A stretch of DNA of 44,011 nt from Acidobacteriota bacterium (GTDB lineage Bacteria > Acidobacteriota > Blastocatellia > Pyrinomonadales > Pyrinomonadaceae): the NCBI GenBank assembly GCA_029557535.1, contig JAKQII010000379.1:1-44011 (forward strand), given 5' to 3'. The notes under the pieces are model-generated. The model saw only the letters and a list, made by a program, of their open reading frames with translations. It did no database searches and was not told the origin of the DNA. The position numbers and the translations under genes are program-made. Below are positions 22,947 to 30,822 of this stretch, piece by piece; within the stretch, counting starts at the first letter, position 1; every line of letters begins with the position of its first letter.

Positions 22947-23849
22947 TCAAAGGAGCCCGATCGCCTGAAGATCCGTGATCGGCTCGATGAACGAGCAACT
23001 GCCAAATGAGCCGATATAACGCCCCCGGATCAGCTCAAGCTGCTCCGTGCTCAAATAGTAATCGCCGTGCCAGGCAACGCCTTCGTCCGTGAAATCGAAG
23101 CTCTCTTCGAATTCATCCTCAAGTATCTCTTCGAGGATCGTTGTCTGATAGCCGGTATACGCGAATCCGGTTGCGAGGAACAGATTCAGAAATCCGTTCA
23201 TTGTTCCGCTCGGCGCGTTGGCTTCATACGTCAGCGGTTTGAAGCAGCGGAGCGGATGATGAAGACCGGCCGTCGCCTTGAACGGCACGTTCGCCGCCAG
23301 ACACACCCGTATGAACTGGATGATCGTCCGCACCGGCGGAAACTCGCCTGCTGTAATGCCTCCGGTCCTGATCTTCGCACGCTGACCGTGCACGGCGAGT
23401 GCCGTCACGAGATCCGCCAATCGGCTGTCCGTCGGAATCTCAAAATAGGCGGTCAGAAAGTCCGGAAGCGCGGCGGTGGTATTTTGGATCTTTGACTCGG
23501 TGACGGCCCTTACTTCGAGCGTGTCGCAGATCGCGTGCGGGGAGTTTTTGACGTTGAAGTCTTCGATCTGCCGAATCGTCTGAACTATGTCCTCGCCAGC
23601 GAGGATGCTCAGGCGCCACGGATCGTATGTCTCACGTGAAATAAAGTCGCGGGCGCACTCCAGGAATTCGTCTATTCGTGCAACGGGAAGTACGAATCTG
23701 CCAAGCATCCAGCGGTAGTTGCTGGCTCGGTATGTCGCGTAGTTCAGCACGGCTTCCTGCATTGCGACCTGCGAGGGCGGAAAGAGCCCGGCATAGTCAA
23801 TTGCGTCGGAGAGCAATGCACGAACCGATTCTTTGGGGCTTTCAACCAT
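22947..23849 (-). CDS. Uncharacterised protein beside tyrosine catabolism genes
   Basis: This is a 300-residue soluble protein without signal peptide. Recognisable blocks are DAIDYAGLFPPS (about 14-25), RWMLGRFVLPVARIDE (about 45-60), AKIRTGG (about 186), PFKATAGLHHPLR (about 215) and a terminal SFGSCSF. The alternating strand-helix pattern with lysines at strand ends (KIRTGG, FKATAGLHHP) suggests a TIM-barrel-like enzyme, but this is inference. I recall similar conserved hypothetical proteins in several phyla without a function. It is the fifth gene in the phhA-hpd-hmgA direction, so a role in aromatic amino acid breakdown is possible. ATG 23849 is chosen over the in-frame 23933 start, since the extra 28 residues have no protein-like pattern. 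Confidence 0.65.
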   Translation of the reverse strand: MVESPKESVRALLSDAIDYAGLFPPSQVAMQEAVLNYATYRASNYRWMLGRFVLPVARIDEFLECARDFISRETYDPWRLSILAGEDIVQTIRQIEDFNVKNSPHAICDTLEVRAVTESKIQNTTAALPDFLTAYFEIPTDSRLADLVTALAVHGQRAKIRTGGITAGEFPPVRTIIQFIRVCLAANVPFKATAGLHHPLRCFKPLTYEANAPSGTMNGFLNLFLATGFAYTGYQTTILEEILEDEFEESFDFTDEGVAWHGDYYLSTEQLELIRGRYIGSFGSCSFIEPITDLQAIGLL

Positions 23850-24075
23850 GGGGCAATTACAGTGGAAAATGCGTTTATATCTTAGTTCGTTTCTGATTCC
23901 TTGCCAATAGTCAGACTCATAATCAGTCGCCAAGTCTCCAATCTCCTTTTGTCGGCCCGGATGCGGTCAAAGATACTCCGGTGACCGCTGACCGGGTAAT
24001 GCCAACCTTCTGATCGCCCGTTGTGTAAATGGTCGAGTAACCATCCGGTCCGCGAGCAACTTCAGCCTTCGACTT

Positions 24076-24237
24076 TTAGATATCGATGCATCGGACATCT
24101 CCGGGCTGATCGCCTTTTCCGTTCACCGTCGACTTCTCCTTCAAAAACGGCAGAAGTTCGACGTTGCCGCATGAAGAAAAGACCGCACCCGGAAGTGCGA
24201 TCAGCAGTGCCAGAACGAATATCGTCATTTTGCGCAT
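24076..24237 (-). CDS. 53-residue lipoprotein-like peptide coupled to hmgA
   Basis: The frame starts with ATG two bases after the hmgA stop codon, with AGGG a few bases upstream inside hmgA, so it should be translated with hmgA. It opens with MRKMTIFVLALLIALPGAVF followed by SSC, a near-consensus lipobox with Cys23, and leaves only about 30 polar residues (including ELLPFLKEKSTVNGKGD). This would be a tiny membrane-anchored lipoprotein or a secreted peptide. I know no family for it, and its tight spacing is the main support. Confidence 0.5.
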   Translation of the reverse strand: MRKMTIFVLALLIALPGAVFSSCGNVELLPFLKEKSTVNGKGDQPGDVRCIDI

Positions 24238-24239
24238 CG

Positions 24240-25544
24240 TCAAACCCTGAAGTTCTTCTTCAGACCTTGCCAGCACTCGTAATAGTCAGCCTGAAGCAGA
24301 CCGCCTTCGATCGCATAGCGCGTCGGCCGGATCAAATAGCGCGACTCGAACATAAAGGCCATCGTGCCGGCGAGTTTTTGCGGCGAAAGATCGTGGTTCG
24401 AGGCCTTCTCGAACGCGTCGACGTCCGGACCGTGGGCAGACATACAGTTGTGCAAAGATCCGCCGCCGGGGACGAACCCTTCTTCCTTCGCATCGTACTG
24501 GCCGTAGCAAAGTCCCATGTATTCCGACATATAGTTGCGGTGATACCAGGGCGGGCGGAAGGTGTTCTCGGCCACGAGCCAGCGGTCGGGGAAGATCGCG
24601 AAGTCGCAGTTCGCGACTCCCGGTTCGCCCGACGGCGAGGTTAGAACGGTGAAGATCGACGGATCGGGATGATCGTACGAGATAGAACCGATCGTGTTGA
24701 ATCGGCGAAGATCGTATTTGTAAGGCGCAAAGTTGCCGTGCCAGCCAACGACATCCAGAGGTGAATTCCCGATGTGGCATTTCCAGAGATTCCCGGCGAA
24801 TTTTGCGACCAGTTCGAAGTTGCCCTCGCGGTCTTCGTACCACGCCACCGGAGTTTCGAAATCGCGCGGATTGGCGAGGCCGTTGGCGCCGATCGGCCCG
24901 AGGTCGGGAAGTCTGAACTGCGCGCCGTAATTTTCGCAGATGTAGCCGCGCGCCGCGCCGTCGGGCAGTTCGACGCGGAACTTCAGTCCGCGCGGTATAA
25001 CCGCGATCTCGCCGGACCCGATCTCAAGAACACCGAGTTCCGTCAGAAACCGAACGCGGTTCATCTCAGCCACGACGAGCATTTCGCCGTCCGCGTTATA
25101 GAAGAACCGGTCGGTCATCGACGCGTTGCACGAATAGACGTGAATCCCGATTCCCGCCTGCGAGAAGAGGTCGCCATTGCCGGCGATCGAGACTATCCCG
25201 TCAACGAAATCTGTTTCGGCCTCCGGAATCGGAACCGGATCCCAGCGAAGCTGGTTCGGCGTCACGTTCTCGGTGTCAAACTTGCTGATCCAGTCGCCGT
25301 TGTCGACGCGTTCGAACGGCCGGTGAAGCACCGACGGCCGGATCCGGTATTCCCAGGTCCGTTTGTTCCACGCACGCGGAACGGTAAACGCCGTTCCCGA
25401 GAATTGCTCGGCGTAAAGTCCGAGCGGTGCCTTTTGCGGCGAGTTCTGCCCGATCGGAAGCGCGCCCCTGACGGCTTCGGTCGCAAATTCGTTCCCGAAT
25501 CCGGATTGATATTCAATTATCGCTTCGCTTGCTTTTGGATTCAT
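24240..25544 (-). CDS. hmgA: Homogentisate 1,2-dioxygenase
   Basis: HmgA opens the ring of homogentisate with O2 and Fe(II) to give maleylacetoacetate, the central step of tyrosine breakdown. The 434-residue length fits the family. The N terminus [13 protein letters not shown] is diagnostic. The C-terminal half carries the iron-site segments [13 protein letters not shown] (His and Glu ligands), [19 protein letters not shown] and the final histidine region before [11 protein letters not shown] use ATG 25544 (MNPKASEAI); the frame stays open to 25619 and another ATG lies at 25565, but the added residues look unconserved. It lies downstream of hpd with a 119-bp repeat-containing gap and upstream of a coupled small lipoprotein frame. 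Confidence 0.96.
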
Positions 25545-25616
25545 CTCGTTAGTCTTGAATTGCATGTAACCCGGAAGCAGTTTGGAACGCTCCTTCGAAC
25601 GGCATCGCCCGGCGCT

Positions 25617-25668
25617 CACTGCTCACTACTTCCTGCTTACTGCTCACGGCTCACGGCTCACGGCTAAA
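25617..25668. repeat. CTCACGG tandem repeat between hpd and hmgA
   Basis: The plus strand shows ACTGCTCACTACTTCCTG and TTACTGCTCACGG followed by two more CTCACGG units. It reaches the 3' end of hpd and is another degenerate pyrimidine-rich array like those at 3320-3427 and 10107-10300. Confidence 0.6.
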
Positions 25669-26773
25669 GATTTCCGCGCCGTCTTTGTTCTTCCTCGATC
25701 GAAACGAAAAGCGCCTTGAAGTTTCCCTTGCCGAATCCCTTGCAGCCTTTGCGCTGGAGGATCTCGTAGAAAACGGTCGGCCTATCTTCGACGGGTTTCG
25801 TGAAGATCTGCAACAGATAGCCTTCATCGTCGCGGTCGACGAGAAGTCCGAGCCGTTTCAGATCTTCGATGTCCTCGTCGATCTCGCCGACGCGGGCCGT
25901 CACTTCCGCATAATACTCGTCGGGCACGCGAAGGAATTCGATTCCGTTCTCCTGCAGTTTCGCGACCGTATGCAGGATGTCCTTGCAGAGCAGCGCGACG
26001 TGTTGTGCGCCCGCCGACTTGTAAAAATCGATGTATTCCTGGATCTGCGATTTTCCGCCCTTGCCTTCGGCCGGTTCGTTGATCGGAAACTTGATGTTGT
26101 GGCCGCCGTCCGACATGACGATCGACATCAGCGCCGAATATTCGGTCGAAATATCCTTGTCGTCGAACGTGATGTAGCGCGTGAAGCCCATTACGTCGCG
26201 GTAGAAGTCGCACCAGTAGTGCATCTTTCCGAGCTCGACGTTGCCGACGATGTGGTCGACGAGCTGGAGGCCGACGTCTTCGCCGGCAACTTCCTGCGCG
26301 ATGAAGCCGGGAAGGAACGGACCGTTGTAGTTGTGGCCGTTATTGTTGTTGTACGAGATCAAAGAGTGGACCGTGTCGCCATATGTATGGATCGCGGCGC
26401 GTCGAACGTTGCCATTTTCATCCTGCCAATCGTGGGGTTCCATGTAGGCGCGCGCACCGCGTTTGATCGCCTCGTTGAACGCGTGATCGGCATCGTCGAC
26501 AAGGAACGCGATGTCCTTGACGCCGTCTCCGTGCAGTTTGATGTGCTCCGCCGCCGGATGTTCGGGCGAGAGCGGCGTCGTCAGAACGAAATTGATCCGG
26601 TTCTGCCGCATGACATAGCTCGTCGTTTCGCGGTTTCCGGTCTCGAGCCCCGAATACGCGCACCGCGAGAATCCAAACGCCTTGCGATAATAGAATTCCG
26701 CCTGCTTCGCGTTGCCGACATAAAACTCGACGTGATGAATTTTCTTAAGTCCCAAAGGATTCTGTTCGTTCAT
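25664..26773 (-). CDS. hpd: 4-hydroxyphenylpyruvate dioxygenase
   Basis: Hpd converts 4-hydroxyphenylpyruvate, O2 and Fe(II) to homogentisate. The 369 residues contain two vicinal-oxygen-chelate domains, beginning [20 protein letters not shown] and [16 protein letters not shown]. Iron ligands read as H174, H258 ([10 protein letters not shown]) and E337 (VFYEILQR), all present. The C-terminal [15 protein letters not shown] segment is the family's gating helix. ATG 26773 has GAGAGG a few bases upstream. The gene follows phhA by 122 bp in the same direction and precedes hmgA, giving the order phhA-hpd-hmgA. Confidence 0.97.
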
Positions 26774-26895: not shown

Positions 26896-27801
26896 TCAAA
26901 AACTCTCGATATACTTCCTGGTTACTTCCTTAAGTTCCGCATAGGACGGAACTACATACAGAACCGGCTGCATGTCAGAGTACGTGTACTCGTGATTGAT
27001 CACCTCTTCGAGCAGGAACGGCCGACGCTCGACCTTGTCCGAGAACGCATGCTCGATCTCGCCGAAACTCGACAGCAATCCGGCGCCGTAGGCCTTGATG
27101 CCGCCTTCGTGTTCAACCAGTCCGAATTCGACAGTGAACCAATAGAGCCGTCCGAGTTCTTCGAGCTGGCGGTCGTTCGCGATCCGCGCGCCGTGACCGA
27201 TGAACTGCGAGAAATCGGCAAAATTCGGATTCGTGAACATCGGAATATGCCCGATCGCTTCGTGCACGATGTCCGGTTCGGGCGTGTACGCGGGCTGCGA
27301 GTGATGCCGGATATACTGCGTACAGAGCATCGTCCGGTACGAAAGCCACGACAGAAATCCCCGTGTTTCGACCAGCCCTTCGATCGGCGCGAGCCTGAAT
27401 CCCGTCAGTTCCTTGAGCCGGCGGTTCATCTCCGTCAGCTGCGGGATCCGATCGGTCGTGATGCCGAGATCGCGTTTTGCGCGCAGGTAAAACGGCGACG
27501 CGTATTTCTGCTGAAGCTCTTCCAACTCTTCGGCGACGTAGCGCCAAACGCGCTGTTCGCGCGGCGTGTACTCGACGTCGGTGATGACGCCGGTTTCGCG
27601 AAAATTCTTCGCGAGCGACGCGATGTAGTCACGCCGCTTTCGGTATTCGGGATCGTTCGCGCCCGGGTGATCCAGATGCAGTTCGTTGATATGTTCGAAT
27701 TCAAGATCCGTAAATGCCGGCAGGTCTTCATCCGGCACGGAATAGTTCGAAATCGAAACCGCCGATTCGGCAACGGTTGTCACTCCTGATTCTGGGTACA
27801 T
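26896..27801 (-). CDS. phhA: Phenylalanine 4-monooxygenase
   Basis: PhhA is a pterin-dependent aromatic amino acid hydroxylase that makes tyrosine from phenylalanine. The 301 residues show the catalytic core with iron ligands H180 and H185 ([14 protein letters not shown]) and E225 ([14 protein letters not shown]), plus SFGEIEHA near the C terminus. There is no regulatory ACT domain, as usual in bacteria. The start ATG 27801 has AGGAG upstream. The aminotransferase needed to reach hpd's substrate and a pterin dehydratase are not in the window. The 200-bp leader is AT-rich and holds a perfect palindrome at 27950-27966. Confidence 0.95.
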
Positions 27802-28002: not shown

Positions 28003-30738
28003 CTAGCGCCAGTTTCCCATCAAAACGAACGGGGCCCAGAATGACGGGTGGGCGAAGCGGCCGTTTTCCGAGGCGACCAGCGACTTTTGCGCATAGCGGA
28101 TCGCATCGGCCTTTGTCGCCTTCGGGTTATCCTTCAGGTACGTGTAGAAAGAGTTCATGATCGACGCGGTACTGTCGTCGTCGACGGCCCAAAGCGTCGC
28201 GAGAACCGCTTTCGCGTTTCGCGTTTGGATGAGGCTTGCAAAGCTCTCGACCTCTGATCCGTTCCAGTCCTCTGACGACGCCGTGTTGCATGCCGAGAGC
28301 GTCACGAGTTCGACGTCCGAGAAATCGAGCACCGGCGAAGTTCCAAGTTCTTCAAGCGTCAGGATCTTCCCGTTGCCCATCACGAGAAACGACGACGACC
28401 AGTCTCCCGCCAACCTAAAATGGCTTGCGAGATGAACGACCGAGAATTCCTTTCGACCGTCCGCAGTCTGCCGCGCGAGTGAATCGGTGAGATTCTTGAG
28501 CGTGAACGAATCATTCAGAAAACGTCGCCCGGCGAGAATTCCGGATTCGGCCGGTCCGTTCTGATCCCGAATCAGCGACTTGAGTTCGGCCTCGACTCCC
28601 GGCAACGACTGGAACGTCACCGGAACGTCCGGGTAATCCGGATAAAAGACAGTCTGCTCCTTCGAGACACCCATTCCCAATGCCGTCAGGTTTTTGCCCG
28701 AATCACCGATGTCGTCGCGCGTTTGAGCGGTCACCACGACGTTCCTGTACCTTTCGACGAGATACGACTTTCCATCGGGCGACAGCGCGGCGATCGGGAT
28801 ATATCTCAGTGTTCCGTCGAGCGACCACACGATCGTCTCAGCCCCGGAGTCTTTGAGCACACGTTCGATCGGCTTCACGATCACGTCGTAGAGTTCCTTC
28901 GCGAGAGGCAGCGGATCGGACTTCGGATCTTCGAGGATTCTACGGAACGCGAATATCTTCTTGTTGAGATCGGTCGCGGTGATCTCCGTCTTGCCGGCAA
29001 CCTGGACCGTCGGCGTGGTTACGAATACGCGATAACGCTGATCGGAAACGATTGTCGAGATCGCGACCGTACCCGGTCCGAACCGGCGCAGTTTGGACTG
29101 GAGCTGCCGATCGGCATTGATCTTGCGCACGTTCTCGGCACCGATATCGTTGATCAAGGTCTTCTCCAAAAAGATCTTGAACGCGGCGCCCGCTTCGGCG
29201 AGTTCGGACGAGAGCCGCTGGAATTCCTGTTCCTCAGCCGCCGAAAGCTGTCCATCCTGCGAGAGAAGAAGTCGCCGTTTGTCGTCAAGCCTCTGAAATC
29301 TGACTCCGAGCTGCGAAACGCGGTCCGCCAGCGCCGCGTATTTTTGCAGGAGTTCCTTTTCTTTCGGCGACAGGTCCGCGCGCTGCGAAAGTCCCCGGAT
29401 CTCGTCGGCGTCGCGCCGGACAAAGCCGAAAAACTCTTCGTCCTTGAGCATCCGTAGTACCGCGTTCGCGTCTTCGAAACGACCGTTCGCGATCAGGATA
29501 TCGATCAGGTAACGGTACTCGTCGGCGATCGAACTCAGGTATGTTTTTTGGATCGCGCGGTCAAGATCCTTGATCGCCGATCGCAGTTCCTGATACTTGT
29601 TGACGCACTGCTTGCCGAAGAAGATCGCCGCGGCGGGCGACGACGCCTCGTTGTAAGCCCGCATCAGATTGCTCAGAACAATCGCCTCGAGGCCGCGGTC
29701 CTGTGTTTCGCGGGCAAGCAGCAGCGAGCGGTTCAATGTGTTGAATTGCGGTGCGCGATTTTCGATGCTGACCCACCCGACATTGTTCAGCGCGGTCGCC
29801 ATGCCGCTCTTATCGCCTGATTTCTCATGCTCCGACAGCGCTGAATTGAAATATCCGAGAGCCTTTGGAAGGTCGTTGAGACGAAGATAGGCGTTGCCGA
29901 TGTTGTTGAGAATCGTCGCCTTTGACGCCTCGAAGCCGAGCTGCGACCGAATCGACAACGCTTCCCCGAAATGCTCTATCGCGACCGACGGTTCCGAGTC
30001 GATGATCGCGAGACCCAGATTGTTCAATGTCGTCGATTCGCCGTATCTGTCTCCGGACTTACGGCGTAAAACCAAGGACTGCCGGAAATACTCGGCGGAA
30101 CGGTTCGGATCACCGAGGTCGTTATAAAGCAATCCGAGATTGTTGAGAACGATGGCGTGGGTGCGATCATCGCCGATCTCGCGACGTATCACGATGGCAT
30201 TCGTATACGCATCGAGGGCCAGTTTCCGCTCGCCAATGTCGGCATAGGCGGAACCGAGACTGTTCAGGCTGCTCGCCTCGCCGTCGCGATCGCGGGTTTT
30301 CTTTCTGAATTCGAGCGCCCGGAGATGACAATCGACGGCCTTTGTTCCCTCCCCGAGATCACTGTAGAGATTACCGAGGTTGTTCAGGGTCCGGCCTTGC
30401 ATCGTCGCATCGCCGCTCTTTTGAAATATCTCGAGGACCTCCAGATAGATCTTGAGCGCTTCGTCCTTTTCACCGATCAGATTCTTGATAAGCCCAACGC
30501 CGAGACGCGATCGGGCGGCGCTTTCGTTATCGCCGGCTTCCAGATAAAGTTTCACCGACAACTGAAACTTCTCGAGCGCCGCCAGGTACGATCGATACTT
30601 GCGCTCGCCGCGCAGATCGATCGCCTCGTTGAACGCGCGCAAAGCCGCTTCGCGCTTCTGTTCGTTCTCGGGCTGACCGAAAACGAGAAGCGACGGGAAG
30701 AGGACGAGGACCAGCAACAGGGATCGGCAAACTCTCAT
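28003..30738 (-). CDS. Exported TPR-CHAT domain protein
   Basis: This is a 911-residue protein with a signal peptide (MRVCRSLLLVLVLFPSLLVF). Seven or more tetratricopeptide-like repeats of 40 residues follow (residues about 30-400, each with a LNNLG-type motif). A helical linker comes next, and a C-terminal CHAT domain (about 560-911). The caspase-like dyad is present: H773 (VVHLASHF) and C817 (TLSACNTA), so proteolytic activity is plausible. The ending WAPFVLMGNW is typical of the family. TPR-CHAT proteins are linked to programmed responses and to defence when intracellular, but this one is predicted to be exported. ATG 30738 opens the signal peptide. It is divergent from the Lrp gene. Confidence 0.9.
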   Translation of the reverse strand: MRVCRSLLLVLVLFPSLLVFGQPENEQKREAALRAFNEAIDLRGERKYRSYLAALEKFQLSVKLYLEAGDNESAARSRLGVGLIKNLIGEKDEALKIYLEVLEIFQKSGDATMQGRTLNNLGNLYSDLGEGTKAVDCHLRALEFRKKTRDRDGEASSLNSLGSAYADIGERKLALDAYTNAIVIRREIGDDRTHAIVLNNLGLLYNDLGDPNRSAEYFRQSLVLRRKSGDRYGESTTLNNLGLAIIDSEPSVAIEHFGEALSIRSQLGFEASKATILNNIGNAYLRLNDLPKALGYFNSALSEHEKSGDKSGMATALNNVGWVSIENRAPQFNTLNRSLLLARETQDRGLEAIVLSNLMRAYNEASSPAAAIFFGKQCVNKYQELRSAIKDLDRAIQKTYLSSIADEYRYLIDILIANGRFEDANAVLRMLKDEEFFGFVRRDADEIRGLSQRADLSPKEKELLQKYAALADRVSQLGVRFQRLDDKRRLLLSQDGQLSAAEEQEFQRLSSELAEAGAAFKIFLEKTLINDIGAENVRKINADRQLQSKLRRFGPGTVAISTIVSDQRYRVFVTTPTVQVAGKTEITATDLNKKIFAFRRILEDPKSDPLPLAKELYDVIVKPIERVLKDSGAETIVWSLDGTLRYIPIAALSPDGKSYLVERYRNVVVTAQTRDDIGDSGKNLTALGMGVSKEQTVFYPDYPDVPVTFQSLPGVEAELKSLIRDQNGPAESGILAGRRFLNDSFTLKNLTDSLARQTADGRKEFSVVHLASHFRLAGDWSSSFLVMGNGKILTLEELGTSPVLDFSDVELVTLSACNTASSEDWNGSEVESFASLIQTRNAKAVLATLWAVDDDSTASIMNSFYTYLKDNPKATKADAIRYAQKSLVASENGRFAHPSFWAPFVLMGNWR

Positions 30739-30822
30739 ACTATCGACTTGAACGAACCGATGGCGGCGCAATTGCAATCAATATCGTACCAGAACGTGAT
30801 GAGTGCTAAAATGCCCTGAAAA

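Follow-up and report, generated by a model that had tools for sequence, protein, structure and literature searches.

The isomerization of maleylacetoacetate to fumarylacetoacetate in tyrosine breakdown is textbook glutathione chemistry, and large groups of bacteria without glutathione hold the remaining pathway. The described enzyme of this step, the GST-zeta protein MaiA or GSTZ1 (TIGR01262, EC 5.2.1.2), adopts a thioredoxin plus helical fold and is glutathione-dependent. A glutathione-independent maleylacetoacetate isomerase activity was reportedly found in Gram-positive bacteria by Hagedorn and colleagues, writing in J. Bacteriol. in 1985. We know of no gene assigned to this activity, and a literature search for a gene encoding a glutathione-independent maleylacetoacetate isomerase gave nothing relevant. 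In mice, a glutathione-dependent non-enzymatic bypass of the isomerase step has been described, according to its citation elsewhere (Fernandez-Canon 2002, cited in PMC11457941). That bacteria lacking glutathione can isomerize a cis-enoyl keto acid with an enzyme other than a GST has a precedent in NCgl2918 of Corynebacterium glutamicum, a DinB-like mycothiol-dependent maleylpyruvate isomerase (MDMPI) that is likewise known from later citations (Feng 2006, cited in PMC3937715 and PMC4935862).

Here we discuss P0001, a protein encoded in a stretch of 44,011 nucleotides of an acidobacterial genome, the whole of which is called the window below. P0001 is probably a glutathione-independent maleylacetoacetate isomerase and a non-homologous replacement for GST-zeta MaiA; the reaction is inferred, and there are no enzymatic data. 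It resembles MaiA in the proposed reaction and in its genomic slot beside fahA and hmgA. It differs in that no GST model matches P0001 or any of 37 members of its family, in that the family is predicted to form a TIM barrel, and in that its carriers mostly lack gshB, the glutathione synthetase gene. The proposed reaction and its cofactor independence are those of the 1985 activity, and the family occurs in Priestia (Bacillus) megaterium and in actinobacteria. MDMPI has another fold and serves another pathway, and P0001 gives no match to MDMPI_N (PF11716).

The candidate gene and the pathway genes of its genome

The candidate isomerase gene occupies positions 22947..23849 of the minus strand, from an ATG at 23849 to a stop codon ending at 22947, and encodes 300 amino acids; its assignment rests on the open reading frame, linkage to fahA, invariant residues and the predicted TIM barrel. 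The plus strand is interrupted by stops across the same interval. The frame extends 5' to a TTG at 23933; the ATG is favored because the closest relatives (loci L004 and L005) lack an upstream extension, their frames being open for just three codons beyond the start of the match. Full-length relatives sharing 60-76% identity are found in other Acidobacteriota. Between P0001 and L004, differences reach 21, 12 and 53% at codon positions 1, 2 and 3, with 117 synonymous versus 71 non-synonymous codon changes; this divergence is typical of purifying selection, and the gene is not a chance open reading frame. Searches with P0001 and with 37 relatives against Pfam, NCBIfam and PDB sequences returned chance-level matches at most.

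Three genes of tyrosine catabolism precede P0001 on the same minus strand, in the order phhA-hpd-hmgA-P0001: a phhA-type aromatic amino acid hydroxylase gene (26896..27801; PF00351 (Biopterin_H), 298.8 bits; NF008877, 265 bits, above cut-off), hpd for 4-hydroxyphenylpyruvate dioxygenase (25664..26773; TIGR01263, 438.8 bits) and hmgA for homogentisate 1,2-dioxygenase (24240..25619; TIGR01015, 695.5 bits), which is separated from P0001 by 390 bp. The earlier note had recognized these three genes, had placed a 300-residue frame downstream of hmgA in the same direction, had singled out the blocks AKIRTGG, FKATAGLHHP and SFGSCSF in its product and had missed both a maleylacetoacetate isomerase and a fumarylacetoacetase in the window. 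All of this holds: the three genes are confirmed by family models, the coordinates of the frame are correct on the minus strand, the blocks are present and correspond to conserved blocks of the family, and the window yielded neither maiA nor fahA. Between hmgA and P0001, some of the gap is taken up by a short minus-strand frame of ~53 aa with a lipoprotein-like start (24076-24240; MRKMTIFVLALLIALPGAVFSSCGN...). Immediately upstream of phhA, a gene at 28003-30777 of the minus strand encodes TPR repeats and a CHAT (caspase-like) peptidase domain.

The product of HmgA is maleylacetoacetate, and the genome of the window (4.77 Mb, 98% complete) carries a true fahA elsewhere, on contig C93 (TIGR01266, 499.9 bits; cut-off 375.3). 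A GST-type maiA was not found in this genome, where the best TIGR01262 score is 14 bits versus a cut-off of 171, nor was gshB. A mycothiol-type isomerase was represented only by a single MDMPI_N match of 22.1 bits, under the 24.2-bit cut-off, and no other known isomerase for the maleylacetoacetate step scored over cut-off. The earlier note would have been refuted by genuine maiA and fahA together with normal growth of a mutant on tyrosine; of the two genes, only fahA was found. Since fahA is present and GST maiA absent, the sole step without an enzyme is the conversion of maleylacetoacetate to fumarylacetoacetate, and it is on these grounds that P0001 is assigned to the isomerase step. It would take maleylacetoacetate from HmgA and yield fumarylacetoacetate for FahA.

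Linkage of the family to fahA in Acidobacteriota

Gene-neighborhood statistics, the check that the earlier note had proposed, were obtained from 297 evenly sampled Acidobacteriota genomes and strongly support a place of P0001 in the pathway. The family was detected in 56 of them, and fahA scored over cut-off in 67, with one more copy truncated at a contig end. Nearly all family carriers possess fahA (55/56), versus 13 of the 241 other genomes (Fisher p 4e-46, uncorrected for phylogeny). In 47 of the 55 genomes with both genes, fahA immediately follows the family gene on the same strand; these pairs span 19 taxonomic families, are identical in order and orientation in 47/47 cases and are usually separated by no more than 100 bp, with a median below 100 bp. 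Distances between family proteins correlate with those between the FahA proteins (32 loci; Mantel r 0.77, 0/2000 permutations). Long open frames in loci L034, L040 and L049 had suggested that the two might be fused; this was excluded for L049, where they occupy different reading frames.

The gene hmgA frequently precedes the family gene in Acidobacteriota. Within the taxonomic family to which the window belongs, many genomes have hmgA elsewhere and retain the pair with fahA; because the pair persists where hmgA has moved, fahA is the tightest link of the family. The window and genome G152 display the reverse arrangement, the family gene lying within the hpd/homogentisate dioxygenase cluster and fahA apart. 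The two genes are not adjacent in eight genomes that carry both. In G173 this is explained by contig ends, at which both genes lie; in G096 and two close relatives the family gene stands apart from fahA. A single carrier, G193, has no fahA. Family copies apart from tyrosine genes and with unrelated neighbors were observed at L073:6516-7430 (G233) and L078:6019-7041 (G096).

Of the 297 genomes, 13 have glutathione synthetase over cut-off; G152 is the only family carrier among them, leaving 55/56 carriers without it. With gshB missing, the family occupies settings where a glutathione-dependent enzyme could not work. GST MaiA itself exceeded its cut-off in one genome only (G198), which also has glutathione synthetase; GSTs under the MaiA cut-off occur in a few family carriers such as G152, which counts against the isomerase assignment, as do the carriers in which fahA is missing or not adjacent.

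Invariant residues, predicted fold and a tentative mechanism

Conservation was assessed in 48 non-identical homologues with identities down to ~26%. Nineteen residues are invariant in 48/48 (D18, A20, P25, E112, E137, K159, R161, G163, G164, P171, K191, T193, A194, G195, L196, G219, N222, G283 and C285), and H197 is kept in 47/48. Judged from the alignment alone, the invariant residues are exclusively of catalytic type or structural, with one cysteine among them.

An AlphaFold2 model of P0001 folds as a TIM barrel of alternating strands and helices (pLDDT 74, pTM 0.78). It was built on an alignment that stayed at eight rows because a scan of viral contigs for extra family sequences found none. 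E112, E137, K159 and K191 are modeled on or beside successive strands, the two lysines on strands 6 and 7, respectively, and C285 lies two residues beyond the last strand in a low-confidence region. This numbering takes the poorly modeled N-terminal segment, residues 17-22, as strand 1. The best structural match of the model is deoxyribose-phosphate aldolase (DERA; Z 13.7, rmsd 3.4, 203 residues). A second, poorer model led by another family member (pLDDT 65.5) gave the same best match (Z 13.0, rmsd 3.6, 211 residues). DERA is only modestly separated from other folds, as pyruvate kinases trail by ~1 Z unit.

The catalytic lysines of Escherichia coli DERA, K167 and K201, are likewise on strands 6 and 7, a likeness that rests on prediction without residue-level superposition. 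Motifs are also alike, KTSTG of DERA versus KIRTGG of P0001 and VKASGG versus FKATAGLH. The differences are an identity of only ~7-15% and the operon context of P0001, which is tyrosine catabolism; the genome of the window carries a separate true DeoC. P0001 matched none of the DeoC family models (TIGR00126; Pfam/NCBIfam). Homology to DERA was not established, a profile comparison by hhalign giving a local E of 0.014 and a probability of 3%. The fold search recommended by the earlier note places the predicted TIM barrel of P0001 nearest to DERA, but the fold leaves the reaction undefined.

A DERA-like class I aldolase fold, albeit predicted, with two invariant lysines at strands 6 and 7, could also suit an enzyme that bypasses isomerization, namely a hydrolase or aldolase with maleylacetoacetate itself or some other linear intermediate as its direct substrate. 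Class I aldolases break C-C bonds, and gentisate pathways include maleylpyruvate hydrolases. We regard this explanation as unlikely: direct cleavage of maleylacetoacetate by P0001 would make FahA redundant, and fahA is kept in all but one of the carriers, usually as the next gene. With FahA kept and the isomerase as the only unfilled step, cis-trans isomerization is the reaction inferred for P0001.

How P0001 would isomerize maleylacetoacetate can be suggested only tentatively, and the following scheme, which we hold to be rather doubtful, is weaker than the isomerase assignment itself. Lys159 on strand 6, together with Lys191 on strand 7, would form an iminium with the C4 ketone and polarize the enedione. 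From the C-terminal end of strand 8, the Cys285 thiol would add to C2 and so play in cis the role that glutathione has in MaiA. The C2-C3 bond would then turn, the thiol depart and the trans product be released by hydrolysis. Iminium and Michael-type chemistry is plausible in such a fold because an engineered DERA, to go by the title of its structure entry, performs Michael additions via a Schiff base (PDB 7p76). That the family represents a new kind of enzyme, a DERA-like TIM-barrel cis-trans isomerase using a lysine iminium and a built-in cysteine in place of glutathione, is possible rather than probable. If it were so, Acidobacteriota, Actinomycetota, Bacillota and Cyanobacteriota would have their isomerase step filled by this new family, which would also supply the gene for the activity reported in 1985, and the lysine-plus-cysteine mechanism would represent an unusual role of the aldolase barrel in nature, comparable to that of the engineered DERA.

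Genomes without the family and plasmids of other phyla

The 13 Acidobacteriota with fahA and without the family (G036, G040, G094, G103, G139, G147, G155, G163, G195, G237, G268, G273 and G289; most of them covered by loci L053-L066) mostly also have hmgA and hpd. A profile search found no distant family copy in these 13 genomes, maiA was not over cut-off in any of them, and no replacement gene common to their fahA neighborhoods was seen. These genomes are the chief weakness of the isomerase assignment: the step can be met otherwise or non-enzymatically, and another unrecognized route of maleylacetoacetate isomerization may exist in these genomes. In a separate observation, G089 and seven more genomes of genus g76 (family f50) have a true hmgA and no fahA over cut-off; glutathione synthetase is present in this genus.

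That 13 fahA genomes manage without the family, together with the close linkage to fahA and the murine bypass mentioned above (Fernandez-Canon 2002, cited in PMC11457941), would also fit an accessory role, in which P0001 is a chaperone, complex partner or channelling factor of FahA or HmgA and isomerization proceeds non-enzymatically or by a low-molecular thiol. We give this little credence. The invariant charged and nucleophilic residues sit at predicted TIM-barrel strand ends, as in an enzyme active site, and the bypass, as cited, requires glutathione, whose synthetase gene is absent in 55/56 carriers.

Beyond Acidobacteriota, the data comprise plasmids only and do not cover host chromosomes. 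The family is present in 24 annotated plasmid records, in which its annotated genes are labeled 'hypothetical protein'. With X standing for the family gene, the order is hpd-X-fahA-hisC-homogentisate dioxygenase in Priestia megaterium and homogentisate dioxygenase-X-fahA on plasmids of Pseudonocardia, Tsukamurella and two Streptomyces, the latter two with CoA-transferase subunits next. Rhodococcus plasmids carry an HGD-like cupin gene followed by X-fahA, two further Streptomyces plasmids have X-fahA, and in the cyanobacterium Kovacikia X-fahA lies beside divergent hpd and dioxygenase genes. On 11 family-bearing plasmids maiA was not over cut-off. On proteobacterial plasmids of Sphingobium, Acinetobacter and Roseomonas, it is GST maiA instead of X that adjoins fahA, and some other proteobacterial fahA plasmids (Paracoccus, Variovorax and Rhizobium) have neither the family nor maiA nearby.

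Linkage of the family to fahA and to homogentisate dioxygenase or hpd thus extends over four phyla: Acidobacteriota, Actinomycetota, Bacillota and Cyanobacteriota. It strongly supports the suggestion of the earlier note that P0001 could act on a downstream intermediate of tyrosine catabolism, catalysis itself being inferred; the note had not named the step. One conserved unannotated family in the isomerase slot of four phyla would close the gap of the glutathione-free pathway, amend the annotation in Streptomyces, Rhodococcus, Priestia and others, and provide a non-homologous counterpart of human GSTZ1.

On Rhodococcus and some Streptomyces plasmids the pair occurs without hpd, near an FAD monooxygenase or regulators, as might be expected if P0001 isomerized a related cis-enedione of another pathway (maleylpyruvate-like or derived from 3-hydroxyphenylacetate) and its link to tyrosine were secondary. 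This remains very improbable, since the same hpd-less clusters retain fahA, in Rhodococcus along with the HGD-like cupin protein, and are consistent with homogentisate from a different source. The idea of an unrelated passenger gene, which the earlier note had left as its alternative and which a few carriers with unrelated neighborhoods (G096, G204 and G233) might recall, is scarcely tenable given a linkage that is conserved across four phyla and, within Acidobacteriota, across 19 families, with the same order and orientation in 47/47 pairs.

In Priestia, Kovacikia and some Acidobacteriota, the family is accompanied by a homogentisate dioxygenase of another, distant type (~390 aa; L041:4779-5933, L045:4994-6256 and L077:4485-5657); its representative in G152 scores far under the TIGR01015 cut-off.
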